From positions 1-64,000 of the forward strand of contig JAOADD010000059.1 in the NCBI GenBank assembly GCA_026417495.1: 64,000 nucleotides of DNA. Direction: 5' to 3'. The notes under the pieces were generated by a model. That model did no database searches and was not told where the DNA came from. It saw only the letters and a program-made list of their open reading frames with translations. How positions within the stretch are numbered: position 1 is the first letter of the stretch; every line of letters starts with the position of its first letter. The position numbers and the translations under genes are program-made. Source of the DNA: Ignavibacteria bacterium. GTDB taxonomy: Bacteria; Bacteroidota; Ignavibacteria; Tepidaquicellales; Tepidaquicellaceae. This document shows, piece by piece, positions 27,684 through 43,616 of this stretch.

Positions 27684-28588
27684 TAAATTTTGGATAATTC
27701 TTTTAACACTCGTTTTTTTATATCTTCCGGAGTCAGTTTTTCATATTTCAAAATGTCATTAAATAAAGCTGGCTTGAACCATCTGTTTGGAAATGAAATA
27801 TTCAGCACTTTACCAGTTATATTATTTTTTAAAGCTGTTTCTGCTGTTATAGTAAATAATCCACCGGTAGAGAAATGATCTTCTATTATTACAGTTAACC
27901 TGCTTTGTTTTATGGAACGAATAATAATATTTTCATCTATTGGTTTCAGGGTTCTGAAATTTATTAATCCTGTTTTTATTCCTGTTCTTTCTATTAATTC
28001 TTTTGCTTTTAATGATTCTGTGAAAAGTGTTCCATAGGTAAGTATAGTTACATAGTTTACATCATTTATGATCTCTGCTTGTCCCTCTTTGAATTCTTTT
28101 GAATGTTCGTATTCTGCTTTCCTATTATTAAATCTTATATAATATGGTGAAGGGCTCTGTAAAATATGCTCAAGACATATTTCAAGGTCATTATCATCAG
28201 CGGGACAGAAGACATTTAAATTTGGTATACCTCTCATAAGTGATATATCCTCTAAAGCTTGATGAGTCGCTCCATTTGCTTCTGAAAGAAGCCCAGGAAA
28301 TCCACCAACCAATTTCACAGGGAGTGCAGGAAACCCAATATCAGTTCTAATAAATTCAAAAGCTCTCATAGTAAGAAAAGCAGATAAAGCATGAGTAATT
28401 GGAATTTTCCCCCGTTTTGCCAGTCCTGCTGCCATACCAATTTGAGTCATTTCTGAAATGCCAGTGTCTATAAATCTTTTTCCTACTTTATCAGGCAAAT
28501 TTCTTATAGAAGCTCTATTTTCAGAAGTCATTATTAAAAATCTATCATCACTTTTGATTATATTTAGGAGTGTTTCTTCGTATGTCAT
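27683..28588 (-). CDS. Split transketolase, C-terminal (pyrimidine and C domain) subunit
   Basis: 301 residues: thiamine-diphosphate pyrimidine domain (~1-170, with RFIDTGISEMTQIGMAAGLA containing the catalytic Glu, and THQALEDISLMRG) followed by the transketolase C domain (LKPIDENIIIRSIKQ, IIEDHFSTGGLF). Encoded next to the N-terminal subunit with a four-base overlap. Together they make a split transketolase that would transfer a two-carbon ketol unit. About 300 residues shorter than housekeeping single-chain transketolase or DXS. A paralogous pair lies at 41868-43616. Confidence 0.88.
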   Translation of the reverse strand: MTYEETLLNIIKSDDRFLIMTSENRASIRNLPDKVGKRFIDTGISEMTQIGMAAGLAKRGKIPITHALSAFLTMRAFEFIRTDIGFPALPVKLVGGFPGLLSEANGATHQALEDISLMRGIPNLNVFCPADDNDLEICLEHILQSPSPYYIRFNNRKAEYEHSKEFKEGQAEIINDVNYVTILTYGTLFTESLKAKELIERTGIKTGLINFRTLKPIDENIIIRSIKQSRLTVIIEDHFSTGGLFTITAETALKNNITGKVLNISFPNRWFKPALFNDILKYEKLTPEDIKKRVLKELSKI

Positions 28589-29442
28589 ATTGCTTTAATA
28601 ATATTAGAATTTACATTTGATATTGGATTTGAGTATAACTCAGTAAGGAGTTTTTGAATTTCAGCTTTCGTAAAATTTGCATACCATCTATCTGTTCTTG
28701 ATTCAATACTCGGAACACCCTTTCCTCTAACTGTGTCTGCGATTATAACATTAACTTTTCCGTTGAATAAATTAAGGGAAGAAAATGCATTATCTATATC
28801 AATGAAATTATGCCCATCAATTCTGATTGTATTTAGACCAAAAGCAATTAATTTATCTTCAAGAGGTTCTAAAGGTATTAACTTTTCTGTTTCTATATTT
28901 GCTTGAAATTTATTTCTATCAATTATTACAATTAAATTGTCCAGTTTTTTAGCTGATGCAACAAGAATACCTTCCCAAATAGAGCCTTCATTTAATTCAC
29001 CGTCTCCGAGAAGAACAATTATCTTATTTTTTTGATTATGATATTTGCAGTCATAGGCAATTCCCATTGCTATACTTAGAAGATGCCCAAGAGAACCAGA
29101 ATGAAATTCAACTGAAGGAATATTTGTATTAGGGTGCAAATATATATAATCGTCAGTTTGTAAATGTTTTTCCAACCTTTTTTTCTCAATTATACCAACT
29201 TCAGCAAGTGTGGCATAGAGAGCAGGAACAGCATGTCCTTTTGATAAGAGGAAATAATCTCTTTCAGGAGATATAAGATTATCTTTATTGATATTAAGAT
29301 ATCTTTTGTATATATATAATATTAAATCTGCACATGATAAAGATGCACCTATGAAACATCCTCCATTCGTAGCCATTCTTATTATATTTTCTCTTACTTT
29401 GAGGGCAATTAGTTCAAGTTCCTTTAATTCATGTTCTGTCAT
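28585..29442 (-). CDS. Split transketolase, N-terminal (ThDP-binding) subunit
   Basis: 285 residues with the thiamine-diphosphate/Mg2+ motif IIVLLGDGELNEGSIWEGIL (~150-169), a His-containing substrate loop LLSKGHAVPALYATLAEVG (~67-85) and FHSGSLGHLLSIAMGIAYD. The Asn of NEGS and following IDRNKFQA complete the cofactor site. Overlaps the C-terminal subunit gene and the upstream cytidylyltransferase by four bases each. Acting on a special sugar within this glycan operon is inferred. Confidence 0.88.
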   Translation of the reverse strand: MTEHELKELELIALKVRENIIRMATNGGCFIGASLSCADLILYIYKRYLNINKDNLISPERDYFLLSKGHAVPALYATLAEVGIIEKKRLEKHLQTDDYIYLHPNTNIPSVEFHSGSLGHLLSIAMGIAYDCKYHNQKNKIIVLLGDGELNEGSIWEGILVASAKKLDNLIVIIDRNKFQANIETEKLIPLEPLEDKLIAFGLNTIRIDGHNFIDIDNAFSSLNLFNGKVNVIIADTVRGKGVPSIESRTDRWYANFTKAEIQKLLTELYSNPISNVNSNIIKAI

Positions 29443-30245
29443 GTTATTTTAGTTTGATTCAGGTTAATTGTTTTAAGTGAATCGATATGATGTCTGTACC
29501 AATTAACTCCAAGATATTTTTTATTAATTTCTGCCAGTTCAGGTTTCTTTTCAAGAAGTTTTAGTATATCGTTTAATCCAAAATTAGGTTTCATGGGATA
29601 CAAATATTCATAAACTCTTTTTATAAATTCATAGTCTTCTAAATAATCTATTGTGAATCTGTGTGTTAATGAAAAATCTTTTCCTGTTTCCCACCGATAA
29701 TTCCCGATGCGGAATATATCAGGATTATCCCATATATAAGGGGTTGTATGTTCCCTTTCATATGGAGCTAAAGCGTTTTCATATGCAATTTTTAAGACGG
29801 ACATATGCATGACTTCAACATCATTACCATCAGGAAATGTGGGAGGGTGTAAATTACTTACATAATCGTATTTATTATTATTTGTTAAGTAAAAACTGAT
29901 AACTTTATCAATAATATTTGTATCAATTAACGGACAATCTGAAGGAATTTTGGAAATAATATCTGCTCCAAAATATAGACCAGCTTTGTAATGCCTGTCT
30001 AAAAGGTCATTCTCTGATCCCCGGAAAAAAAGTTTATTTTCTTTTTTACATAAATCAACAATTTCGTCATCTTCACTTTTTTCTGTAGTTGCTACAACAA
30101 CTATAGGTTTAAAATAACTCCTTTCGACTCTTTCAACCATCCTAATCAGAAGTGCTTTACCACAAAGTGGCAAAAGTACTTTTCCAGGTAGTCTTGAAGA
30201 TCCTGTTCGTGCTTGAATGACAATTACTATTTTTGGAAAATTCAT
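29439..30245 (-). CDS. SpsF-like cytidylyltransferase
   Basis: 268 residues, GT-A nucleotidyltransferase fold: IVIVIQARTGSSRLPGKVLL (~5-24) is the CMP-sialate synthetase/SpsF nucleotide-binding signature, with ISKIPSDCPLIDTNIIDKVI carrying the metal-binding Asp. SpsF-type proteins probably activate nonulosonic acids or related sugars with CTP. In this operon it would make the CMP-sugar of the product formed by the NeuB-like enzyme. Four-base overlap with the downstream transketolase gene. Confidence 0.85.
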   Translation of the reverse strand: MNFPKIVIVIQARTGSSRLPGKVLLPLCGKALLIRMVERVERSYFKPIVVVATTEKSEDDEIVDLCKKENKLFFRGSENDLLDRHYKAGLYFGADIISKIPSDCPLIDTNIIDKVISFYLTNNNKYDYVSNLHPPTFPDGNDVEVMHMSVLKIAYENALAPYEREHTTPYIWDNPDIFRIGNYRWETGKDFSLTHRFTIDYLEDYEFIKRVYEYLYPMKPNFGLNDILKLLEKKPELAEINKKYLGVNWYRHHIDSLKTINLNQTKIT

Positions 30246-30249
30246 TTAA

Positions 30250-31266
30250 CTAAAATTTCTGAAAAGTATTATATCTTAATGGTAATAGTATATCGTATTC
30301 TTCTTCAAAGGATTCATTTAATTTGCTTTCGCAAATCAATGCAATATTATAAGCAGAACTCCCTTCATTTTGAATTGGAGTTAATTTCTTGAGGAAATTT
30401 AAATCGAAATCAGAATACACATTTTTCCCAAGAGCAATTCCAATATAAACTACAGAAGAAAATCTTGTAATTAAAGTTTTACAATTTGCAATCATTTCAT
30501 TTGTATTTCCATTTGTATAAATAAGTGCTTTGGGTGCGTATTTTCTTATTTCCTTGATTGCTCGCTTAAAATTTTCATTTGGATGTAGTTTAAAAATTAG
30601 AAGGTCATTTCCTGCAATTTCTAATGCTTTTTTTATAAACTTTTTCCTATTTTCATACTTAAAAGTTTCCCTACAATCTGAGGTACATACTAAAACATAG
30701 TCCTTATATGGAAAATTATTGTTTAAAAAACTTTTGCAATTATCGAAATTTGGAATACCTGTTACCCTTATTTTCGATTCCTTACATCCCTTTTTAATGA
30801 ATAATTCTTTATAACCTTCTGATGCTACACAAAATGTTTCATAAGCATCTGAAAGCCCTGTTGTTGATGTACTTGCTAAATAGCGTGGAAACTTAAAGTA
30901 TTTTGCTAAGTAAAAAAATATATTTTCAGGATCCGTCATTCCTTCTTGCAGTAAAATGATTTTTTTACCCCTTATATTTTTAGGTATAATCAAATCGCTA
31001 CATGTAACTACAAGATCATAATTATTTTGTTCACCTTTGTAATCAATTTTTAAGCCGTTTTCTCTTAGATAATTTAATGTGTTTTCTTTGAATGTTCCTC
31101 CAAGTATAGTGAATTCGGTTAAATGTAGTTTTGTCAACAGTCCTACAAAGCCATCTGCATAATAAGGAGTAAAATAACAATCATATTTATCATATAAATG
31201 CTTATATACCTGATGCATCATTCTTGTCTGATTGAGCGAACCACAAATAAATAGAATTTTCTTCAT
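30250..31266 (-). CDS. GT-B-fold glycosyltransferase-like protein (epimerase/CDP-glycerol-transferase-like)
   Basis: 338 residues, first gene of the minus-strand operon. N-terminal Rossmann start KKILFICGSLNQTRMMHQVY and a C-terminal half with DLLIFKLHPNENFKRAIKEI and TRFSSVVYIGIALGKNVYSD. These are reminiscent of the KxHP and S-S/E motifs of CDP-glycerol glycerophosphotransferases and UDP-GlcNAc 2-epimerase-like GT-B proteins. I cannot name the family. It could hydrolyse or epimerise a UDP-sugar to feed the NeuB-like enzyme, or transfer the final sugar. Confidence 0.6.
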   Translation of the reverse strand: MKKILFICGSLNQTRMMHQVYKHLYDKYDCYFTPYYADGFVGLLTKLHLTEFTILGGTFKENTLNYLRENGLKIDYKGEQNNYDLVVTCSDLIIPKNIRGKKIILLQEGMTDPENIFFYLAKYFKFPRYLASTSTTGLSDAYETFCVASEGYKELFIKKGCKESKIRVTGIPNFDNCKSFLNNNFPYKDYVLVCTSDCRETFKYENRKKFIKKALEIAGNDLLIFKLHPNENFKRAIKEIRKYAPKALIYTNGNTNEMIANCKTLITRFSSVVYIGIALGKNVYSDFDLNFLKKLTPIQNEGSSAYNIALICESKLNESFEEEYDILLPLRYNTFQKF

Positions 31267-33203: not shown

Positions 33204-33449
33204 ATGAAAATAAATAAAAAAGTAGCAATCAGCGAAACAGGTTTTGTTTATGATACTACAACGGGTGATTCATACTCACTAAATCCTATTGCGATTGAAA
33301 TTATTGAATATTTAAGAAAGGATATGAATTTAGAAGAGATTACCAGAAAGTTACTCGAAAAGTACGATGTAAGCAAAACCGTTCTTGAAAAATCTTTAAA
33401 TGATTTTATTAGCGCTTTAAAATCTTATAATATTTTGATTGATGAGTAA
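33204..33449 (+). CDS. PqqD-like small protein
   Basis: 81 residues with the PqqD/winged-helix pattern: N-terminal beta part GFVYDTTTGDSYSLNPIAIEII and then two helices LEEITRKLLEKYDV and VLEKSLNDFISALKSYNIL. PqqD-fold proteins bind peptide precursors (RiPP recognition elements) or act as small partners. There is no pqqA/pqqE here. Its last codons overlap the start of the ATP-grasp gene by eight bases, so the two are translationally coupled. It may present a substrate to the ATP-grasp enzyme. Confidence 0.72.
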   Translation: MKINKKVAISETGFVYDTTTGDSYSLNPIAIEIIEYLRKDMNLEEITRKLLEKYDVSKTVLEKSLNDFISALKSYNILIDE

Positions 33450-34491
33450 GAAAAGAAAAATTACAATTGCAGCTACTGGACTTAACAATACAGATAATCC
33501 TGGTCCTGGAATCCCATTTATTAGAGGTGTACTTGATTCTGATTTTTTTGATGCAAAAATAATCGGATTAGCTTATGAAAATCTTGAACCTGGTATTTAT
33601 ATGCATGACTTAATTAAGAAATCTTATCACATACCTTATCCTACGGCGGGTTCAGATGTTTTAATAAAGAGATTAGAATATATTAATAGTATTGAAGATA
33701 TTGATGTTTTAATTCCCAATTTTGATGCTGAACTTTATACTTTTATGAAATCGTCTAATAAACTTGAAGAAATGGGAATTAAAACATTCTTGCCGACAAT
33801 TGAGCAATATGAAGAGAGACATAAATCCAATCTCCCGAAATTCGGTGAGAAATATGGTGTTAAAGTTCCAGCGAGTAAGGCAGTATATTTTGAAAGAGAG
33901 TTAATCACAGTTGAAAAAGAAATAAAGTATCCTTTCTATGTAAAAGGAAAATTTTACGAAGCTGAACTTGCATATAATAGAGAACAGGCAATTACATTTC
34001 TGAGAAAAATTTCTGCCAAATGGGGTTTTCCAATAATTATTCAACAATATGTTAGCGGTACTGAAGTTAATGTTGTTGCACTTGGAGATGGTAAAGGGAA
34101 TACTGTAGGTGCTGTACCTATGAGAAAATTATATATTACTGATAAAGGAAAAGCTTGGGCAGGAATAACATTAGCTGATGATAATTTATTAAAATTGACA
34201 AAAAGACTAATTAAGAAAACAAAGTGGCGGGGTGGAATGGAACTGGAAATTATTCGCTCGAAGAACAATGAGTATTTTCTTGTTGAAATAAATCCTCGCC
34301 TTCCTGCATGGGTATATCTTTCTGTAGGAGCAGGACAAAACTTACCAGAAGCACTTGTAAAACTTGCTCTTGGAATTGAAGTAGAACCGTTTACAGAATA
34401 TGAAGTTGGGAAAATATTTATCCGATACTCTTTTGATTTAATAACTAATATTGAGGAGTTTGAAAAATTATCTCTTTATGCGGAATTATAA
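33442..34491 (+). CDS. ATP-grasp ligase
   Basis: 349 residues from ATG 33442 (the TTG one codon earlier is unlikely). N-terminal pre-ATP-grasp domain (KRKITIAATGLNNTDNPGPG, then DIDVLIPNFDAELYTFM) and ATP-grasp fold with FYVKGKFYEAELAYN, PIIIQQYVSGTEVNVVALGD (~195-214) and the metal-binding GGMELEIIRS...YFLVEINPRLPAW (~265-290). This is the carbamoyl-phosphate-synthase/PylC-like type that joins a carboxylate to an amine. Substrates are unknown; the downstream decarboxylase suggests an amino-acid-derived product. Confidence 0.85.
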   Translation: MSKKRKITIAATGLNNTDNPGPGIPFIRGVLDSDFFDAKIIGLAYENLEPGIYMHDLIKKSYHIPYPTAGSDVLIKRLEYINSIEDIDVLIPNFDAELYTFMKSSNKLEEMGIKTFLPTIEQYEERHKSNLPKFGEKYGVKVPASKAVYFERELITVEKEIKYPFYVKGKFYEAELAYNREQAITFLRKISAKWGFPIIIQQYVSGTEVNVVALGDGKGNTVGAVPMRKLYITDKGKAWAGITLADDNLLKLTKRLIKKTKWRGGMELEIIRSKNNEYFLVEINPRLPAWVYLSVGAGQNLPEALVKLALGIEVEPFTEYEVGKIFIRYSFDLITNIEEFEKLSLYAEL

Positions 34492-34507
34492 AAATTAAAA
34501 AAACGAT

Positions 34508-35869
34508 ATGAAAACAAAAAAGTTAACATTTGAAAGGCCAATTATTAAAAAAATAAGCATTGGTGTTTCCAGTAAATTTGGTACGAAAACAGAGTTTGAA
34601 CCGATTACTCATATAGACAATATTCCTGTAAAAGAATTAGTAGGGAAATATGGTTCACCTCTTTTTGTTATTTCTGAAAGTACTATAAGGAATACTTATT
34701 CAGAAGCAAAAAGAGCTTTTGAAACAAGGTATCCGAAAGTACAATTTGCGTGGTCATATAAAACAAATTATTTGAATGCTGTATGCAATATTTTTCATCA
34801 AGAGGGCTCTTGGGCAGAAGTTGTCTCTGGATTTGAATACGAAAAGGCTATTTTAAATGGAGTACCTGGAAATAAGATTATTTTCAATGGACCACATAAA
34901 TCTGATAATGAATTGCATAAAGCAATTGATAATGGCTCATATATACATATTGATCATTTTGATGAACTTTTTACTTTAGTGGAAATAGCGGAGAAACATA
35001 AAAAGAAACCTAAAGTTGCAATTAGAGTAAATATGGATACTGGTATATATCCAATGTGGGATAGATTTGGTTTTAATTATGAAAATGGAGAAGCATGGGA
35101 AGCATTAAACAGAATAATGTTGAGTAAGAAATTAAATCTTGTTGGATTGCACACTCACATAGGAACTTTTATTCTATCTCCATCTGCTTATAGTATTGCA
35201 GCTTCAAAACTTGCAGATTTAGCTGTAAACTTAAAACGGAAATTTAATCACAATATTGGTTATATTGATATAGGTGGTGGTTTTTCATCCAAGAATACTC
35301 TGAAAGGATCTTATTTAGTTGGAACTGACATTTCTCCAAGTTTTGACGATTTTGCAGAAGCAATTACAACCGCTTTGATAAACTCTCAAATTGAACCTAA
35401 TAGTTTACCAGTATTAATACTTGAAACAGGGAGGGCTTTGATTGATGATGCTGGTAGTTTGATAGGAACCGTTGTTGCAAATAAAAAACTTTCTGATGGT
35501 AGAAATGCTACAATACTTGATATTGGTGTTAATATATTATTTACCTCTTTTTGGTACGAGCATAGAGTTACACCTGCACAGGAATTTTCACAACATTCCG
35601 AAAATACTGTTCTATATGGCCCATTATGTATGAATATAGACCAACTGAGAGAGTCCATTTCATTACCACCATTAAAGAAAGGGGACCATGTTGTAATCTC
35701 CCGAATAGGTGCATACAATATGACCCAATGGATGCAATTTATTACTTTAAGACCAAAAGTTGTTTTGATTTCATCAAAAGGTGATGTGTATATAATTAGA
35801 CAGAATGAAACAACAGAACTTATTAATTCTATTGAATATGTTCCCGATTACTTGAAATTAAAAAAGTAA
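34508..35869 (+). CDS. Fold-type III PLP decarboxylase (diaminopimelate/ornithine decarboxylase family)
   Basis: 453 residues. An extra ~40-residue N-terminal segment precedes the alanine-racemase-like barrel. Motifs: Schiff-base Lys in VQFAWSYKTNYLNAV, GLHTHIGT, glycine loop IDIGGGFSS, ETGRALI (variant of EPGR), active-site Cys in VLYGPLCMNIDQL, and ISRIGAYNM near the end. This is the group IV decarboxylase family (DAP, ornithine/arginine, carboxynorspermidine). It follows the ATP-grasp gene by 16 bases. It is probably not the housekeeping LysA, because it sits in a special operon and ends with divergent residues. Confidence 0.84.
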   Translation: MKTKKLTFERPIIKKISIGVSSKFGTKTEFEPITHIDNIPVKELVGKYGSPLFVISESTIRNTYSEAKRAFETRYPKVQFAWSYKTNYLNAVCNIFHQEGSWAEVVSGFEYEKAILNGVPGNKIIFNGPHKSDNELHKAIDNGSYIHIDHFDELFTLVEIAEKHKKKPKVAIRVNMDTGIYPMWDRFGFNYENGEAWEALNRIMLSKKLNLVGLHTHIGTFILSPSAYSIAASKLADLAVNLKRKFNHNIGYIDIGGGFSSKNTLKGSYLVGTDISPSFDDFAEAITTALINSQIEPNSLPVLILETGRALIDDAGSLIGTVVANKKLSDGRNATILDIGVNILFTSFWYEHRVTPAQEFSQHSENTVLYGPLCMNIDQLRESISLPPLKKGDHVVISRIGAYNMTQWMQFITLRPKVVLISSKGDVYIIRQNETTELINSIEYVPDYLKLKK

Positions 35870-35881
35870 ATATTAGAAAAT

Positions 35882-38071
35882 TTGACTATTAAGGAACATT
35901 TAAGAGCTATATTAAACAGTTATTCAATAATATTTTTTTCAGACAAAGTATTTGTTGCATTAATTATTGTGGCGATAACTTTTTTAGAACCTTTCTCTGG
36001 ATTATGTGGGTTGATAGCATTGATTACTGCAAATATTACTGCTGATTTACTTGGCTTTGATAAGTTTAGTATTAAAAAGGGGTATTATGGATTTAATTCG
36101 CTTTTGCTTGGTATTGGAATAAGTATAGGGTTAGAAGCCAATTGGATTCTGATTTTATTCATAATTTTAAGCTCAATATTTTGCTTCTTCATCACGATCG
36201 GATTAGAAACGGTTCTCTCTAAGTATTCTTTACCATATTTAAGTTTACCATTTCTTTTTTCTTTTTGGATCCTATCACTTGCAATTAAAGAGGTCAATTT
36301 AATTCAACTTGCTAATCGTGATGTTTATTTTATCAATTATGTGTTTCAACTAGGTGGACAGGATTTATTAGACAAATATTTGTGGTTGAGAAGTTTTGAA
36401 ATTATTGAATCAATAAGAACATATTTTTCATCACTTGGTTCAATTATATTCTTTCCACATAAGGTGATTGCTGGAGTCCTAATTGCAATTGGGTTATTAT
36501 ATTATTCACGAATTTCATTTACTTTATCTTTAATTGGATATTATTCTGTATATTATTTTTTTAAGCTAATCGGATTGAATTATCCCGAACTGATTTTTGC
36601 TTATGTAGGATTTAATTTCATTCTTACTGCAATTGCTGTTGGTGGGTATTTTATGATTCCTTCTACTTCAACTTACATATGGGCAATAATTCTTACCCCT
36701 ATTACTGCAATATTTTTTCTTGCGACGAATAAAGTATTTGCTACATGGGGTTTGATTGTTTATTCTTTACCATTTATTATTACGGTATTATTATTCCTAC
36801 TTGTTGTTAAAGCAAGGTTTTTGAAATCAGCAAAACTTTCCGAAGTTTATGTTCAATCTAACTCACCCGAGGTTAATTTATATAATTATGTAAATAATAA
36901 TCATCGCTATAGAAATCAAGTTTATTATTCGATAAGATTACCTTTTTATGGTGAGTGGGTTGTATCGCAATCCCATGATGGGAGTTTGACCCACAAAGAT
37001 AAATGGAGATATGCATATGATTTTGTGATTATTGATTCGAGTAATAAAACTTTTAAAAATAATGGAATCGCACTTGAAGATTATTATTGTTATGATAAGG
37101 CAGTACTGGCACCTGCAGATGGATATGTTGAAGAAATAGTAGATGGTATACCTGATAATCCAATTGGTCAAGTAAATCTTGAGGAAAATTGGGGAAATAC
37201 TATTATCATCAGGCATGGCGATGGATTTTATTCACAAATTAGCCATTTAAAAGCTGGTTCATTTAAAGTACAAAAAGGGTCTTTTGTGAGAAGTGGACAA
37301 ATTATAGCATCTTGTGGAAATTCAGGGCGGTCACCAGAACCACATATTCATTTTCAACTGCAAACCGTTCCTATAGTTGGTGCAGAAACAATTGATTATC
37401 CATTTGGTTTTTATTTATCAAAAGTTAATAATAAATTAAAATACAATTCTTATAATAAACCTGCCCAAAATGAAATAGTATGTAACCTCGAGATTAATGA
37501 ATTTATGAGAAATGCATTTAATATGTTTCCAGGGAAAAAACTAGATTTTGAAGTTGATGATAATGAAAAAAAGAAGAAGATAAAATGGGAAATATTTACA
37601 GATATTTATAATGTCTCATATATATATTGTAAGGAGACAAACTCATATGCATATTTTGCGAATGACAATAAAGTATTTTACTTCTATGATTTTATCGGAA
37701 ATAGAAAATCATTGCTCTACTATTTTTTCCTTGCATTTTATAAAGTACCACTTGGATTTTATCAAAATTTAGAAGTATATGATTCGATTGCAATACATCA
37801 TGTTTATAACAAGTTAAGTTTATTTGTACAGGATTTTATAGCACCATTTTATGTATATCTTAATGCAAATTATAAACTCTTTTATGAGAGTGTAAATGAT
37901 GAAATTAGCCCTACATCTATGATACTTAGAGCTGAAATAATTAAATCATTTTTAAGTAGAGAAACAAAAAAATACACGTTTAATATAGAGATAACAAATA
38001 GGGGACTTTGCAGCTTTAAAATCATTCATAAAGATAAATTAACAATTGCAAAATGTTTAACAGAAGATTAA
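35882..38071 (+). CDS. Urea-transporter-fold membrane protein fused to an M23 peptidase domain
   Basis: 729 residues, start TTG 35882. The first ~310 residues are polytopic and carry urea-transporter (UT) features: NSYSIIFFSDKVF, ITANITADLLGF and YGFNSLLLGIGISIGLEANW. An extracytoplasmic M23/LytM-like domain (about 340-510) follows, with zinc-ligand patterns THKDKWRYAYDFV, IIRHGDGFYSQISHL and EPHIHFQ, so it looks catalytically competent. The last ~220 residues have no domain I recognise. M23 enzymes cut peptidoglycan cross-bridges or Gly-rich peptides. The fusion suggests transport or release of a product across the inner membrane coupled to cutting. Overlaps the next gene by 19 bases. Confidence 0.82.
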   Translation: MTIKEHLRAILNSYSIIFFSDKVFVALIIVAITFLEPFSGLCGLIALITANITADLLGFDKFSIKKGYYGFNSLLLGIGISIGLEANWILILFIILSSIFCFFITIGLETVLSKYSLPYLSLPFLFSFWILSLAIKEVNLIQLANRDVYFINYVFQLGGQDLLDKYLWLRSFEIIESIRTYFSSLGSIIFFPHKVIAGVLIAIGLLYYSRISFTLSLIGYYSVYYFFKLIGLNYPELIFAYVGFNFILTAIAVGGYFMIPSTSTYIWAIILTPITAIFFLATNKVFATWGLIVYSLPFIITVLLFLLVVKARFLKSAKLSEVYVQSNSPEVNLYNYVNNNHRYRNQVYYSIRLPFYGEWVVSQSHDGSLTHKDKWRYAYDFVIIDSSNKTFKNNGIALEDYYCYDKAVLAPADGYVEEIVDGIPDNPIGQVNLEENWGNTIIIRHGDGFYSQISHLKAGSFKVQKGSFVRSGQIIASCGNSGRSPEPHIHFQLQTVPIVGAETIDYPFGFYLSKVNNKLKYNSYNKPAQNEIVCNLEINEFMRNAFNMFPGKKLDFEVDDNEKKKKIKWEIFTDIYNVSYIYCKETNSYAYFANDNKVFYFYDFIGNRKSLLYYFFLAFYKVPLGFYQNLEVYDSIAIHHVYNKLSLFVQDFIAPFYVYLNANYKLFYESVNDEISPTSMILRAEIIKSFLSRETKKYTFNIEITNRGLCSFKIIHKDKLTIAKCLTED

Positions 38072-39387
38072 TCATTTTAATTTTTTTTGTATTTATAGGT
38101 TCATCATTTTCACAGGTTATCAAATATGATAGTACGATAGATGTTAGGACATATGATCTATATATGAAAAATAAATATGATGAAATGCTAACAATAGCTG
38201 ATAGTGCTTTTGAGATAGGGATTGATTTTTATTATCTAAGAATGAGAGTAGGGATTGCTTACTATGAAAAGAAGAATTATATGTCCTCAATACCTCATTT
38301 TGAAAGAGCATTAGATTTTAATAAAAGTGATACTATTGCTATGGAATACCTTTATTATTCATATTTATTTTCTGGATTATACAAAGATGCAAGTATATTG
38401 GCAAAAAATTCACCTCCGAAATTGAAAGAAAAAATTAATTACAAGAAAGCTGCATTTATAAACGGAATTTACACAGAGGGTGGTTATATCTATAATGGTG
38501 ATTATGAAGAAAGTAAAAATAAAAAAATTACTAGTAATCAACAAATTTCAGGTGAACAAAAATTATTTAAAAATGGAATATATTTCAATATTGATTTAAT
38601 TCATAATATTGGTGAACAAGTTACTTTACTTCATGGATATATATATAATGCATTCAATTTTCTAAAAAGGTATGAATTACAAAATAATCTTTTTAAAACA
38701 TTTGATGCTAGAACATTACAGAATGAGTATTATATTAGTGCAGGCGTTCATATTGGAAAAGGTTTTGATTTAGTCAGTGCGTTCCATTATTTAAATGTCA
38801 ATGTGGAAGACATTATTAATAATCAAAACAACAATTTTACAAAAGTATCCAAAACACTTAATGATTATGTTTTAGCAATTGAGTTGAATAAAAGAATACA
38901 TCATTTTGATATTGGATTATCATCAGGAGTTTCAAGATTAAACGATGCAAATCAACTTCAGAATTCTTTTACTATGACCTGGTATCCATTTGGTAATTTA
39001 AATTTTTATTTAGTTAATAGTTTTATTTTGCATTTAGATAAAGGAGAAAAGAAAGAAGATTATTCAACCAATTTTTTATACTATGCTAAAGTTGGTTTTA
39101 AAGTTACAGATATTTTATGGGTTGAATCGAATTATACCACTGGTAATATTTATAATTACCATGAGAATTCTGCATTCATTGTTTACAACAATGTTGATAA
39201 AATAAAATATAAATACGAAATAGTATTTCTTTTGCCATTATCAATTGACTTTTATCTTTCTTTAAGATACCAGTTTTATCCTCAAGAAATGTACTCATTT
39301 AAGTATATATCAAATACTCAAACAGAACAAACTATAGAAAATATATTTAATCATAAATTAATAGGAGGTATAAAATGGACCTTTTAA
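38053..39387 (+). CDS. TPR plus outer-membrane beta-barrel protein (YaiO-like)
   Basis: 444 residues. Signal peptide LIILIFFVFIGSSFSQ, then TPR-like helices (about 30-130: AYYEKKNYMSSIPHFERALDF), then a beta-barrel region with alternating aromatics to the C-terminus, which ends in Phe (LIGGIKWTF). This is the layout of YaiO-type outer-membrane proteins. It starts inside the UT-M23 gene and overlaps the next TPR gene by 13 bases. Probably an outer-membrane channel or scaffold for the operon's product. Confidence 0.72.
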   Translation: MFNRRLIILIFFVFIGSSFSQVIKYDSTIDVRTYDLYMKNKYDEMLTIADSAFEIGIDFYYLRMRVGIAYYEKKNYMSSIPHFERALDFNKSDTIAMEYLYYSYLFSGLYKDASILAKNSPPKLKEKINYKKAAFINGIYTEGGYIYNGDYEESKNKKITSNQQISGEQKLFKNGIYFNIDLIHNIGEQVTLLHGYIYNAFNFLKRYELQNNLFKTFDARTLQNEYYISAGVHIGKGFDLVSAFHYLNVNVEDIINNQNNNFTKVSKTLNDYVLAIELNKRIHHFDIGLSSGVSRLNDANQLQNSFTMTWYPFGNLNFYLVNSFILHLDKGEKKEDYSTNFLYYAKVGFKVTDILWVESNYTTGNIYNYHENSAFIVYNNVDKIKYKYEIVFLLPLSIDFYLSLRYQFYPQEMYSFKYISNTQTEQTIENIFNHKLIGGIKWTF

Positions 39388-40022
39388 AAAACTTTAAAAA
39401 ACTATTAATAATAGTTGCTGTTTTTGTTATAGCAACAGGAATAAATGCCCAAAAAGAGTCAATCATCCCTTATGATGATGTACAAAATGCTTTTAAACTC
39501 AGTTATAAATATGAATCAGAAGGAAATATTAGTGCTGCTATTGATGCACTTAAAAATGTATACATAGCGAATAATTATGAAATAAATTTAAGACTTGGTT
39601 GGTTATACTATCTAAATAAACAATATTCAGAATCAATGAATTATTACAAAATAGCCATGAATCTTATGCCGTATGCAATAGAACCTAAACTTGGCTATGT
39701 GTATCCTTTAAGTGCGGTTGAGGATTGGGATAAAGTTGCTGATACTTACTTGGAAATTTTAAAAATTGACCCAAATAATACATTTGTAATGTATAGACTT
39801 GGACTTATTTATTACTATAAACCAGATTATCAAAAAGCATACAACTATTTTGAAAAAGTAGTGAACCTATATCCGTTTGATTATTATTCTAACTTAATGC
39901 TTGCCTGGACCAATTATCAATTAGGGAAAGGTAAAGAAGCAGAGGTACTATTCAAAAAAGTTCTTCTTATTAGCCCTGATGATGCTTCTGCTCTAGAAGG
40001 ACTTAATTTATTAAAAAAGTAA
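39375..40022 (+). CDS. Periplasmic TPR protein
   Basis: 215 residues. Signal peptide (KKLLIIVAVFVIATGINAQ) and four to five TPR units, for example LGWLYYLNKQYSESMNYYK and YRLGLIYYYKPDYQKAYNY. The start is within the barrel gene, with Shine-Dalgarno AGGAGG (39362-39367) in its 3' end. TPR proteins scaffold complexes; it probably assists the preceding barrel. Last gene of the operon; a convergent gene ends 12 bases later. Confidence 0.8.
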   Translation: MDLLKNFKKLLIIVAVFVIATGINAQKESIIPYDDVQNAFKLSYKYESEGNISAAIDALKNVYIANNYEINLRLGWLYYLNKQYSESMNYYKIAMNLMPYAIEPKLGYVYPLSAVEDWDKVADTYLEILKIDPNNTFVMYRLGLIYYYKPDYQKAYNYFEKVVNLYPFDYYSNLMLAWTNYQLGKGKEAEVLFKKVLLISPDDASALEGLNLLKK

Positions 40023-40033
40023 ATTTATCTTAA

Positions 40034-41710
40034 TTAATATTCTATATTTATTCTGACAAAAGCGTAACTATAATCGCTTTTTGTACCTTTGGTAATATTG
40101 TTGTCTATATTATAGACAAAATAAAAATTAATTATATAGTTCCTGATTGGAATAAATCTAAAATTTAGTCTTATATTATTTGTGTTTACTCTTTCACCGT
40201 CTAGAAACCTAGCATCTTCATCATCAATACCATCTCTGAATGCATGAATCAAATCACCGCCTACATTTTTAATCAAATTCCCATTTGCATCAAAAATGTT
40301 ATTACCTTTTCTAATGAATCTATATTCAAGATTAATTCTACCCCAGTCAGAGATATTGTAAGAAATTCGAGTGAAAACTTCATCTGCATTTGGACCTATT
40401 GGGTGCCCAAGATTTATACCATAAGCAGTATAATTGTTTTTTAAATCGTAATGAGTGTATGTATAAGGTCTAATCTTTGTATACTCTATTACGAAAGAAA
40501 GATTCTTTATTGAAAGGGGTTCGTAGAAAAATGCACCTACCTGATAAGCAAATTTTTGGTCTCTATTGGTTTTTCCAGAAAGAATAGCGAATCCTTCATC
40601 GTCATCAATGAATATAGTCCCTTGAAATTCTGTGTTTTTAAGGAATCTTGTTCTAAAATCGAAACAAACATTTTTATTGTCTCTATCTTGTAGCGACTTT
40701 TCAGCAAATAACCAGAATAAAATGGGATTCAAATAAGCAAAATCTATTCTCCCATTATAAACAACAACATCTGTAACCCCTATATCAATAACGTTTTTTA
40801 TTGCGATTTTCAGTCTATGCGCTGAGTAATATTTTGTATATCTTTCATCTCTATTTTTTGAAAAATATCCAACAGTAGATGCATAAATACCTGAAAGATG
40901 AAACATATCATAATCAGCACTAAACTTAAAGAAATCCATATCTGGATTATCGCCATTTAGAATAACTTTATCTCCATAACCATAACCATAAGTAAGTCTT
41001 TCTCTGCCTATTTGCCCTGACAGTTTGAACCTATCCAAAGGTTCCACGAAGTATTTTATATATGCACCTGTGTTATCATAACTTAGAACTTTTTCTGCAT
41101 CTTCATTGAATTTGAAATCAGACCTTAATCTTGGTTCTATCAAAGGAGCAAGTTCTTTTTGTCCAATTATTGCACCTTTGTTATATTCGAAAAAATATCC
41201 AAGATGATTAAAAACTGTACCCCTTGCTCTAAGTCCACCATCCATCATAAGAACATTTGTGTTCTTATCAGGTTTTGTTTTTCTCCCAACATATATATTT
41301 CCTAGACCTTCTACATATAGATTGTTACCTTCTTCACCAAAATAGAAAATATATTTTTGTTTATTCGAAAAAAAGTCCTCTAGATTTTTAATAAATCCCT
41401 TTCCACTACCGAAAAGTTTCCAATGATTGTTCTCATTTGCTTCTTCATAAATAAATTCAACTTTATATTTATTTAACAGATCATTTTCTGTATTACTTAA
41501 TGAGCTTTTGTTTTCTTCAATTTGTTTTAAGTAGTCTGCTACCTCAAATCGCGAAAGATTGGGGTTGTCGTCATTCAAATCTATAATACCCTTAACAGAC
41601 ATTTCTTTTAGAAAATCATAAACTGGATATGTAAGGGGTACATTTTCAACTTGTGCTAATAAAGTATTTGTCAATTGTATTAAGCAAAACAACAATATTA
41701 TTTTTTTCAT
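40034..41710 (-). CDS. Wzi-like outer-membrane barrel protein
   Basis: 558 residues. Signal peptide MKKIILLFCLIQLTNTLLAQ; a short helical N-domain (YPVYDFLKEMSVKGII ... LSRFEVADYLKQI) as in Ignavibacteria capsule-assembly Wzi-family proteins; then a long beta-barrel region (INLEYRFIRKGNNIF, INFYFVYNIDNN) with an aromatic C-terminal strand (YAFVRINIEY). Wzi-type barrels anchor or export surface polysaccharide. Adjacent glycan and transketolase genes fit a role in surface sugars. The family assignment is moderate. Confidence 0.65.
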   Translation of the reverse strand: MKKIILLFCLIQLTNTLLAQVENVPLTYPVYDFLKEMSVKGIIDLNDDNPNLSRFEVADYLKQIEENKSSLSNTENDLLNKYKVEFIYEEANENNHWKLFGSGKGFIKNLEDFFSNKQKYIFYFGEEGNNLYVEGLGNIYVGRKTKPDKNTNVLMMDGGLRARGTVFNHLGYFFEYNKGAIIGQKELAPLIEPRLRSDFKFNEDAEKVLSYDNTGAYIKYFVEPLDRFKLSGQIGRERLTYGYGYGDKVILNGDNPDMDFFKFSADYDMFHLSGIYASTVGYFSKNRDERYTKYYSAHRLKIAIKNVIDIGVTDVVVYNGRIDFAYLNPILFWLFAEKSLQDRDNKNVCFDFRTRFLKNTEFQGTIFIDDDEGFAILSGKTNRDQKFAYQVGAFFYEPLSIKNLSFVIEYTKIRPYTYTHYDLKNNYTAYGINLGHPIGPNADEVFTRISYNISDWGRINLEYRFIRKGNNIFDANGNLIKNVGGDLIHAFRDGIDDEDARFLDGERVNTNNIRLNFRFIPIRNYIINFYFVYNIDNNITKGTKSDYSYAFVRINIEY

Positions 41711-41867: not shown

Positions 41868-42692
41868 ATGAAAACGATTTCAATAGATAATCTTAAAGAA
41901 TCATCGATTAGAGTGAGAGAGAGGGTTATAAGAATGGCGGCTCGAGGCGGTTGTTTTATAGGTGCTGCATTATCTTGTGCTGATATATTACTATATTTAT
42001 ACAAAGTATTCTTAAATGTAAAGAAAGATAATTTAAACAGTCCTGATAGAGACTATTTTTTCTTATCTAAGGGACATGTAGTGTCCGTACTTTATTCTGT
42101 CTTTGTAGAAATTGGTATTCTAAATGAGAAGAGACTTGAAAATCATTTAAGCACAAACGATTATATTTATTGGCAACCAAATACTAACATCAATGGTATT
42201 GAATTTCATTCTGGTTCATTAGGGCATTTATTGAGTATAGCTTGCGGTGTTGCAGAAGACATTAAATTAAGAAAAGGTAAAAATAAAGTTGTAGTTATGC
42301 TTGGTGATGGGGAACTAAATGAAGGATCAAATTGGGAAGCGATTCTTTATGCCGGTTCTCGAAAATTAAATAATTTAATTGCTATAGTTGATAGAAATAA
42401 GTTGCAGGCAAATGTAGAAACAGATAAGCTAATAAAATTAGAACCTTTAAATAATAAATTCAGAGCTTTTGGTTGGGAAGTAAGAAAGACAGATGGAAAT
42501 AATTTTGAAAAGATTCATAATACTTTTTCATTGTTACCTAAAAATATTTTTAAACCTATTGTAATCATTGCAGATACAGTAAGAGGTAAGGGTATTCCTA
42601 CCATAGAATCTCGTGTGGATAAATGGTTTGCTCAATTGACAACCCAAGAAGCAGAAGAACTTATAGAAGAGTTACATAAGAGTAAAAAATAA
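41868..42692 (+). CDS. Split transketolase, N-terminal subunit (second copy)
   Basis: 274 residues, closely related to the product of 28585-29442. ThDP motif VVVMLGDGELNEGSNWEAIL, then IVDRNKLQA, FHSGSLGHLLSIACGVAED and LSKGHVVSVLYSVFVEIG. The substrate-loop HAVPALY of the first copy is HVVSVLY here, so specificity may differ. Followed 15 bases later by its C-terminal partner. No sugar-processing genes adjoin this pair apart from the Wzi-like barrel in the opposite orientation. Confidence 0.88.
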   Translation: MKTISIDNLKESSIRVRERVIRMAARGGCFIGAALSCADILLYLYKVFLNVKKDNLNSPDRDYFFLSKGHVVSVLYSVFVEIGILNEKRLENHLSTNDYIYWQPNTNINGIEFHSGSLGHLLSIACGVAEDIKLRKGKNKVVVMLGDGELNEGSNWEAILYAGSRKLNNLIAIVDRNKLQANVETDKLIKLEPLNNKFRAFGWEVRKTDGNNFEKIHNTFSLLPKNIFKPIVIIADTVRGKGIPTIESRVDKWFAQLTTQEAEELIEELHKSKK

Positions 42693-42707
42693 ATTTTGTT
42701 AAAAGTA

Positions 42708-43616
42708 ATGAATTACGATAATAAACTTAAAGATATTGTTTTAAAAGATGAAAGAATAATAGTACTTACTGCTGAGGATAGGTCAGCACTAAAGACATTA
42801 CCTTTATATGCAGATAAAAGATTTATTGATACAGGTATTAATGAGATGACTATGATAGGAGTTGCAACGGGATTCGCATTAAGAGGAAGAATTCCAATTT
42901 GCCATTGTTATTCTGCTTTTATGACAATGCGTGCTTTTGAATTTATAAGAAGCGATATTGGAATTGCAAATTTACCTGTGAAATTAGTTGGCAGTTATGC
43001 TGGAATTCAATCAGGACCCAATGGACCGACTCATCAAGCACTTGAAGATATTTCTCTGATGAGAGGTATTCCTAATATGAAGATATTTTGTCCTGCTGAT
43101 TTGAATGATTTGCTTATTTGTATTGAGACTATTATTAATGAGGAATCTCCATATTATATTAGATATAATGCAAGAGAAACTAATATTGAACACGATAAAA
43201 ATTTTGAAATAGGAAAAGCAGAAAAATTCGGTTCAGGAAAGGACATTGCAATTTTAGTTTATGGCTATTTATTTAATGAAGCATTTGAAGTCAAGAATTT
43301 ACTTGAGAAAAATAATATTGGGGTTTCACTTATTAATTTAAGAACATTAAAACCAATAGATGAAAATATAATTGTTGAGTGTCTGAAATCTTATAAACTA
43401 GTTGTTACAATAGAAGACCATTTTGTTACTGGAGGGCTGTTTACTATTTTATCCGAGATAGCGTTAAAGAATAAATTGTGCTGTGAAGTCTTACCTATCG
43501 CTTTTGAAAATAGATGGTTTAAACCAAGCACTATTAGTAATGTTTTAGAGTTTGAAAATCTAACCCCTCCATCAATTACTATGAAAATAAAACAAAAATT
43601 AAAATCGATTAATTAA
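42708..43616 (+). CDS. Split transketolase, C-terminal subunit (second copy)
   Basis: 302 residues starting MNYDNKLKDIVLKDERI. ATG 42708 is chosen over an in-frame TTG at 42696 because it aligns with the start of the first copy (MTYEETLLNIIKSDDRF). Catalytic Glu region RFIDTGINEMTMIGVATGFA, THQALEDISLMRG, LKPIDENIIVECLKS and TIEDHFVTGGLF. Forms a heteromer with the preceding subunit; probably an alternative transketolase for a specialised ketose. Confidence 0.88.
   Translation: MNYDNKLKDIVLKDERIIVLTAEDRSALKTLPLYADKRFIDTGINEMTMIGVATGFALRGRIPICHCYSAFMTMRAFEFIRSDIGIANLPVKLVGSYAGIQSGPNGPTHQALEDISLMRGIPNMKIFCPADLNDLLICIETIINEESPYYIRYNARETNIEHDKNFEIGKAEKFGSGKDIAILVYGYLFNEAFEVKNLLEKNNIGVSLINLRTLKPIDENIIVECLKSYKLVVTIEDHFVTGGLFTILSEIALKNKLCCEVLPIAFENRWFKPSTISNVLEFENLTPPSITMKIKQKLKSIN

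Follow-up and report, generated by a model that had tools for sequence, protein, structure and literature searches.

What might a bacterial operon be making when it sets a peptide-recognition protein and two enzymes beside a membrane channel fused to a peptidase and an outer-membrane barrel? The question is raised by six genes at positions 33,204 to 40,022 of a 64,000-nucleotide stretch of DNA from an Ignavibacteria bacterium (assembly GCA_026417495.1, contig JAOADD010000059.1, positions 1 to 64,000, forward strand), hereafter the window, whose source assembly spans 2.19 Mb in 76 contigs and is listed as 99.8% complete. The genes of this cassette encode a PqqD-like protein, which is a discrete recognition element (RRE) of the kind known from ribosomally synthesised and post-translationally modified peptides (RiPPs), an ATP-grasp ligase, a pyridoxal-phosphate (PLP) decarboxylase, a urea-transporter (UT) channel fused to an M23 metallopeptidase (UT-M23), an exported protein with a TPR domain and a barrel, and an exported TPR protein. 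We find that the six genes belong together with all the certainty that comparing genomes can give, and that the RRE probably docks on an N-terminal tail of the decarboxylase. We further propose, with slightly less than even confidence, that the operon is an RRE-scaffolded ATP-grasp/decarboxylase pathway with a two-membrane conduit for a small neutral product.

No paper describing this gene set was found. A first-pass annotation of the window knew of no named system with these genes, and none emerged from the literature or from PADLOC. The cassette is a sizeable unnamed system that includes a fusion of channel and hydrolase and a decarboxylase that fits neither LysA nor FslC/FigC, and its product is directly searchable by metabolomics. 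As a separate matter, none of the six proteins matches a PADLOC model, and we rejected a known anti-phage defence system.

Conservation of the gene order

All six open reading frames (ORFs) were verified on the + strand. Neighbouring ORFs overlap by 8, 19 and 13 bases or are separated by gaps of 16 and 12 bases, the 8-base overlap of the first two being obtained with the ATG start of the ligase at 33442. Coordinates and spacing are as given in the first-pass annotation, which had read the genes as one unit and had set conservation of their order in relatives as the test, and profile scores and the AlphaFold2 model of the barrel agree with its families. We analyzed 106 loci, 26 of them picked by UT-M23 alone and 80 by the ATP-grasp ligase alone. 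A search for UT-M23 across 296 genomes of the phylum found it along most of its length in 26 genomes besides the window's, split in two ORFs in one of them and with a shorter match in a few. The PqqD, ATP-grasp and decarboxylase genes adjoin it in the same order in all 26. The scan with the ATP-grasp ligase returned at least 563 confirmed related stretches; the best 80 loci, which were kept, come almost entirely from Bacteroidota, Ignavibacteriota and Chlorobiota, cultured Cyclobacteriaceae included.

The PqqD gene lies within the same gene run in every one of the 106 loci and the full six-gene order is present in 67, which confirms a unit conserved between lineages that separated deep in the past. 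In 12 further loci there is a TPR protein and a barrel outside the profile, and in 20 loci with no TPR protein fewer than 900 bases of sequence remain past the last gene. Incomplete loci are mostly cut by contig ends or carry a different barrel. Three loci that are not truncated have no UT-M23 beside the decarboxylase, and each of those genomes encodes it elsewhere; overall, it is present elsewhere in all seven tested genomes where it is not adjacent. In one locus (L178), the separated UT-M23 still has barrel and TPR neighbours, with one gene inserted. The two halves of the operon can therefore separate without loss, and the retention of the displaced UT-M23 in the genome, together with L178, indicates that both are needed. 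The prevailing layout in the window's own class has the TPR gene directly after UT-M23, followed by the gene of another protein, about 280 aa long and barrel-like in sequence. In one Bacteroidales genome, an IF-2B-family gene (L129, 10461-11369) stands between decarboxylase and UT-M23 and might represent an extra tailoring step.

A predicted docking sequence on the decarboxylase

The PqqD-like protein (33204..33449, + strand, 81 aa) scores 43.8 bits with PF05402 (cut-off 23.4) and 38 bits with TIGR04353, just over the cut-off of 35. What it may bind is suggested by the decarboxylase (34508..35869, + strand, 453 aa). The N terminus of cassette decarboxylases is extended compared to the aligned N-citrylornithine decarboxylase FigC and an archaeal diaminopimelate decarboxylase (DAPDC). 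In the window, this tail (aa 8-25, FERPIIKKISIGVSSKFG, 34529..34582, + strand) is a predicted RRE-docking sequence of the YxxPxL type. The pattern [YFW]xxPx[ILVM] occurs in the tail of all 74 decarboxylases with an intact start, and 72 of them read [YFW]E[RKH]Px[ILVM]. The proline and a later lysine are invariant, and the glutamate and the final glycine of K-F-G are each found in 73. In 72, the distance from the motif to the catalytic start is 39 residues. Nine out of ten LysA paralogues from the same genomes have no such motif before the catalytic domain; the match in the tenth is a chance one and probably precedes the start of the protein.

Motifs of this type are known ligands of the fold: leaders of lasso peptides carry YxxPxL (PMC10368454), and PqqD-like RREs recognise W/Y/LxxP/L/I-type motifs (PMC12710340). 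Since the operon encodes a discrete RRE, and since no conserved small ORF was found within 700 nt upstream in the 106 loci and the window, docking on the decarboxylase is the most economical reading, and the tail conservation makes it probable. The first-pass annotation had described a peptide-binding PqqD-like protein. The family holds, and the ligand is most likely the decarboxylase tail rather than a separate peptide. As in lasso peptide and PQQ systems, there is a discrete PqqD-type RRE and a YxxPx(I/L) recognition sequence, but here the sequence is on an enzyme rather than on a precursor, and the cassette has no lasso cyclase, radical SAM enzyme or linked precursor. Compared to RiPP clusters in general, the RRE and the YxxPxL-type sequence are in place, and no linked precursor gene was found in the 700 nt upstream. 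Genome mining for RiPPs by RRE assumes that the RRE binds a precursor peptide. An enzyme-borne recognition sequence, if true, would be a second use of the RRE fold, one that might account for a number of orphan RREs. A more specific version, where the RRE is re-used as an adaptor between two enzymes with no precursor peptide at all and the product goes straight to a channel whose mouth carries the M23 hydrolase on the cytosolic side, is possible, though we doubt it more than we credit it. Should it hold, a new kind of biosynthesis-and-transport system is spread through Bacteroidota.

The presumed partner, the ATP-grasp ligase (33442..34491, + strand, from the ATG at 33442; 350 aa from an alternative TTG at 33439), scores 38.6 bits with ATPgrasp_Ter (cut-off 29.1). 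Its residues E268/E270 and E283-N285-P-R287 are invariant in 21 homologues, which also have a GLNxxDNPGPG-type motif at the N terminus. It scores with carbamoyl-phosphate-synthase-like families and not with those of known peptide-crosslinking ligases. ATP-grasp peptide ligation is also a feature of pheganomycin-type biosynthesis. Such a system, whose presumed RRE is mentioned in PMC7470986, has the RRE and the ATP-grasp ligation in common with the cassette, but needs a ribosomal precursor and has no decarboxylase-channel module.

Two other roles of the PqqD-like protein were considered and rejected. Its C termini are not conserved, unlike what a LysW-like amino-acid carrier would require, and the HPr-rel-A system shares the TIGR04353 score, but HprK-related kinase A (TIGR04352) is over cut-off in none of 21 cassette genomes. 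A second PqqD-family protein is encoded outside the cassette in the window's genome (L059, G000:C11 36760-36924).

The substrate pocket of the decarboxylase

The decarboxylase scores 99.7 bits with Orn_Arg_deC_N and belongs to the alanine-racemase-fold PLP type, with K85, H217, G256-258, E306, R309 and C374 invariant in 20 homologues. The closest solved structure is FigC (296 bits, compared to 233 for DAPDC). In a published phylogeny (PMC7857480), FigC, SbnH, AcsE, MccE and BtrK group with DAPDC in a clade tied to specialised metabolism, where the cassette enzyme is placed by score, not by tree. With the rhizoferrin enzymes FslC/FigC it has in common a Cys-Met pair (C374-M375); in ornithine decarboxylase and DAPDC, the catalytic cysteine is flanked by an acidic residue instead. 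The proposed citrate ligands of FigC, H357/R387, are however replaced by I377/Q407, both invariant, and the operon has no siderophore synthetase. The specificity helix reads TSFWY, with neither the aspartate of ornithine enzymes nor the arginine of DAPDC, so that both hallmarks of LysA, this arginine and the acidic residue after the catalytic cysteine, are absent. The enzyme also falls short of the cut-offs of NF041039 for FslC/FigC (235 bits against 500) and TIGR01048 for LysA (222 bits against the curated 297.9). By sequence, it forms a subfamily distinct from both. Since the citrate ligands, the ornithine aspartate and the DAPDC arginine are all replaced, we infer that the distal group of the substrate is uncharged. 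The first-pass label 'DAP-decarboxylase-like' is therefore right about the fold and misleading about the substrate, the DAPDC residues being gone.

A separate LysA (at least 366 bits) is encoded in 23 of 26 sampled cassette genomes, which speaks against LysA replacement and, with the distinctness of the decarboxylase from LysA, supports the earlier view that these are not ordinary amino-acid enzymes. The window genome has no separate LysA over the cut-off, and the same is true of a few others checked; in these, a lysine role of the cassette enzyme is still conceivable.

The nearest parallel in enzyme content is the butirosin module, in which BtrJ is the partner protein. BtrK is its decarboxylase and BtrI another component (PMC7857480). 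The BtrI/BtrJ/BtrK module and the cassette share an ATP-grasp ligase, a small partner and an alanine-racemase-fold decarboxylase acting on a tethered amino acid, but the butirosin partner is an acyl-carrier protein rather than a PqqD-like RRE, and there is no channel, M23 domain or barrel.

A channel-hydrolase fusion with a predicted cytosolic peptidase

UT-M23 (35882-38071, + strand, 729 aa) is composed of a urea-transporter-fold channel domain (aa 1-343, 35882..36910; PF03253, 192 bits), an M23 metallopeptidase domain (about aa 346-525, 36917..37456; PF01551, 59 bits) and a beta-rich C-terminal domain (about aa 535-729, 37484..38068). The last is confident in the AlphaFold2 model and has no match in Pfam or in the fold comparison, which barely probed it; this is not evidence of a new fold. 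The model (pLDDT 89.9) resembles urea transporters with Z scores of 35-36 over 305-313 residues (36 for human UTs) and a TM score of 0.83 to the Desulfovibrio vulgaris (D. vulgaris) UT, while the M23 domain resembles DipM/ShyA/LytM-type domains (Z 12-14). The zinc and catalytic residues H371, D380, H455, H488 and H490 are invariant in 42 homologues.

On which side of the membrane does the peptidase lie? In urea transporters, as established for the mammalian proteins, N and C termini are both cytosolic. With loop borders taken from the model helices and the known UT topology, the loops on the side of the N terminus and M23 carry on average 9.1 K+R and 4.5 D+E, and those on the other side 2.6 and 6.3 (n = 42). 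The asymmetry has the same sense in all 42 homologues, with a weak trend of this sign in the D. vulgaris UT (4 and 2 K+R). Because the termini of the UT fold share one side, the positive-inside rule makes a cytosolic M23 domain probable. A peptidase so placed should not reach peptidoglycan.

The filter residues, numbered as in the D. vulgaris UT, are partly retained: F27, F80 and L84 are kept, Q24 is found in 33 of 42 homologues but is Ile in the window, the T130 position is Ser, and the E187 position is mostly Ala, Leu or Ser and never Glu among the listed residues. The urea equivalog TIGR03441 gives 119.8 against a cut-off of 274.6. The cassette channel thus shares with the D. vulgaris UT and UT-B the fold and the inferred N-in/C-in topology, but differs in the M23 fusion, at the E187 and T130 positions and in having no urease association. 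A link to urea metabolism was rejected, as strong urease matches do not track the cassette (1 of 26 cassette genomes and 9 of 270 others).

In one single-contig genome (L051, 7444-9698), UT and M23 are in two ORFs that meet at a T run. Frameshift, true fission and sequencing error are indistinguishable here, and the locus was not used as evidence of a free M23 without signal peptide. Standalone secreted M23 proteins of the same subtype were seen at L030, L031 and L032, the one at L031 with apparently altered active-site residues.

The outer-membrane barrel

The fifth protein (38053..39387, + strand, 444 aa) has a signal-peptide-like start in translation, a TPR domain (aa 25-132) and a predicted barrel of about 14 strands (aa 133-444; AlphaFold2 pLDDT 93.7) similar to TodX, FadL and OmpG. 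The likeness to FadL/TodX is one of fold (Z about 20, 7% identity), and membership by sequence is not shown. The sixth (39375..40022, + strand, 215 aa) scores 60.5 bits with TPR_2, and its homologues have signal-peptide-like N termini. The confident models of the operon proteins, with a UT channel and a barrel, agree with the inner- and outer-membrane parts that the first-pass annotation had proposed. The known relatives of the barrel are uptake or general channels, and hence the fold does not settle the direction of transport.

The proposed pathway and its alternatives

In the pathway that we propose, the RRE would bind the conserved YxxPx(I/L) tail and bring the decarboxylase to the ATP-grasp ligase. 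The latter would act on an amino-acid substrate and form an amide or peptide bond. The decarboxylase would then strip the carboxylate from the ligase product to leave a small, largely uncharged amide or amine. This product would pass the urea-channel-like inner-membrane pore, with the M23 hydrolase at the cytosolic mouth for release or trimming, and would exit via the FadL/OmpG-like barrel aided by the TPR modules. Gene order, co-occurrence, tail conservation and catalytic residues are observed, the folds come from confident models, and the docking of the RRE on the tail and the cytosolic M23 are predictions from sequence; we infer the chemical identity, the order of the steps, the role of M23 and the outward direction. 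We regard this chemistry and outward transport as a tentative reading that falls just short of an even chance. Several points weigh against it. M23 domains are normally extracytoplasmic, signal peptides are present in the standalone relatives of the one in the cassette, and the channel may be inverted, with M23 outside. A precursor peptide may be encoded elsewhere in the genome. Moreover, UT and FadL-type barrels are passive and do not settle the direction of transport.

This last point bears on import or salvage, where barrel and channel would admit a small neutral compound to be converted by the cytosolic M23, ATP-grasp and decarboxylase enzymes. The closest barrel folds, FadL and TodX, are channels for uptake, the pore of the UT domain is passive and M23 sits at the cytosolic mouth, all as import would have it. 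We nevertheless consider it unlikely, since a ligase that consumes ATP typically belongs to biosynthesis, as does an RRE scaffold, and decarboxylases of this group serve the synthesis of specialised metabolites (PMC7857480).

A RiPP-type pathway with a dispersed precursor appears rather unlikely as well. Here the RRE would bind an unlinked peptide, the two enzymes would modify it, M23 would cut it and the fragment would be exported, the tail being a leader mimic or the substrate of the ATP-grasp ligase. Discrete RRE, ATP-grasp and protease do look RiPP-like together, and the tail has a leader motif with its near-invariant glutamate and invariant lysine. Such a pathway is opposed by the missing upstream small ORF, by the scores of the ligase outside the peptide-crosslinking families and by a search with the tail in ten genomes, which found no second good copy: eight gave one strong match each and the other two weak matches (E 0.027 and 1.9), which is no surprise with a query of 36 aa, while a further weak match at E 1.6 was not significant.

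The neighbourhood raises the question of metal stress, in which the product would be a metal ligand induced through an AraC-type regulator. This regulator, which also counts in favour of the proposed pathway, lies upstream in 28 of the 106 loci (24 on the same strand, at a median of 148 bases) and has an IKNMxCxCC-like motif in its N-terminal domain. Where it adjoins the cassette, the genome usually has one or two members of its family, and the cassette-adjacent member scores best. DUF2202 proteins are found near 10 loci, LTXXQ and Cus/Czc-like RND genes near a few, and relatives of the decarboxylase make siderophores. However, the N-terminal domain scores as HMA in Pfam in only 2 of 18 members (E 0.14), the CxCC cysteines are missing in several and no such genes neighbour the operon in the window. 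The link to metals is thus no more than a lead, and the explanation built on it improbable.

Modification of the envelope or cell wall, which the first-pass annotation had offered and in which the enzymes would produce an amine derived from DAP and a periplasmic M23 would act on peptidoglycan, draws on the intact M23 zinc and catalytic residues, the secreted M23 relatives and the LysA-like fold, but is very improbable, as the positive-inside rule puts M23 inside in 42 of 42 homologues and the DAP-binding residues are lost.

Distribution and history

The cassette is found in about 9% of the sampled genomes of the phylum, and its cultured hosts include Algoriphagus, Cyclobacterium and Cognataquiflexum. 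A quick tree of ATP-grasp and decarboxylase, which has some long branches, places the window and three Ignavibacteriota relatives within a Bacteroidia-type clade and at a clear distance from the remaining genomes of the window's class. Since in addition only two of three genomes of the window's genus have the cassette, the comparison suggests that this lineage acquired it from a Bacteroidia-type donor. Plasmid carriage was rejected, as the search gave only one distant Streptomyces match with no other cassette genes.

A few loci require caution as to their origin. A Bacteroidota-type cassette lies on a contig labelled Bifidobacterium breve (L111), most likely mislabelled or misbinned, and the same may hold for L115 (Neomarinimicrobiota). 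Cassette genes occur at both ends of one contig (G124:C1, 20-3836 and 3730000-3735300), the start copy with stops, and these duplicated ends look like an unclosed circular assembly.

In the window's class, a protein sorted by the type IX secretion system (T9SS) is often encoded upstream of the cassette. In L042, L044, L045, L047-L050 and L054, the protein encoded ahead of PqqD is FG-GAP-like, T9SS-sorted and about 280 aa long, and T9SS-tailed proteins follow the cassette in L080, L081 and L116. In the window itself, a Wzi-like capsule assembly protein (40034-41710, - strand) lies directly downstream of the operon on the opposite strand, and apparent surface-glycan-type genes occupy 29439-31266. 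On either side of the operon lies a transketolase-like N-terminal subunit (28585-29442, - strand, and 41868-43616, + strand); the two resemble each other, and the second adjoins its C-terminal partner.

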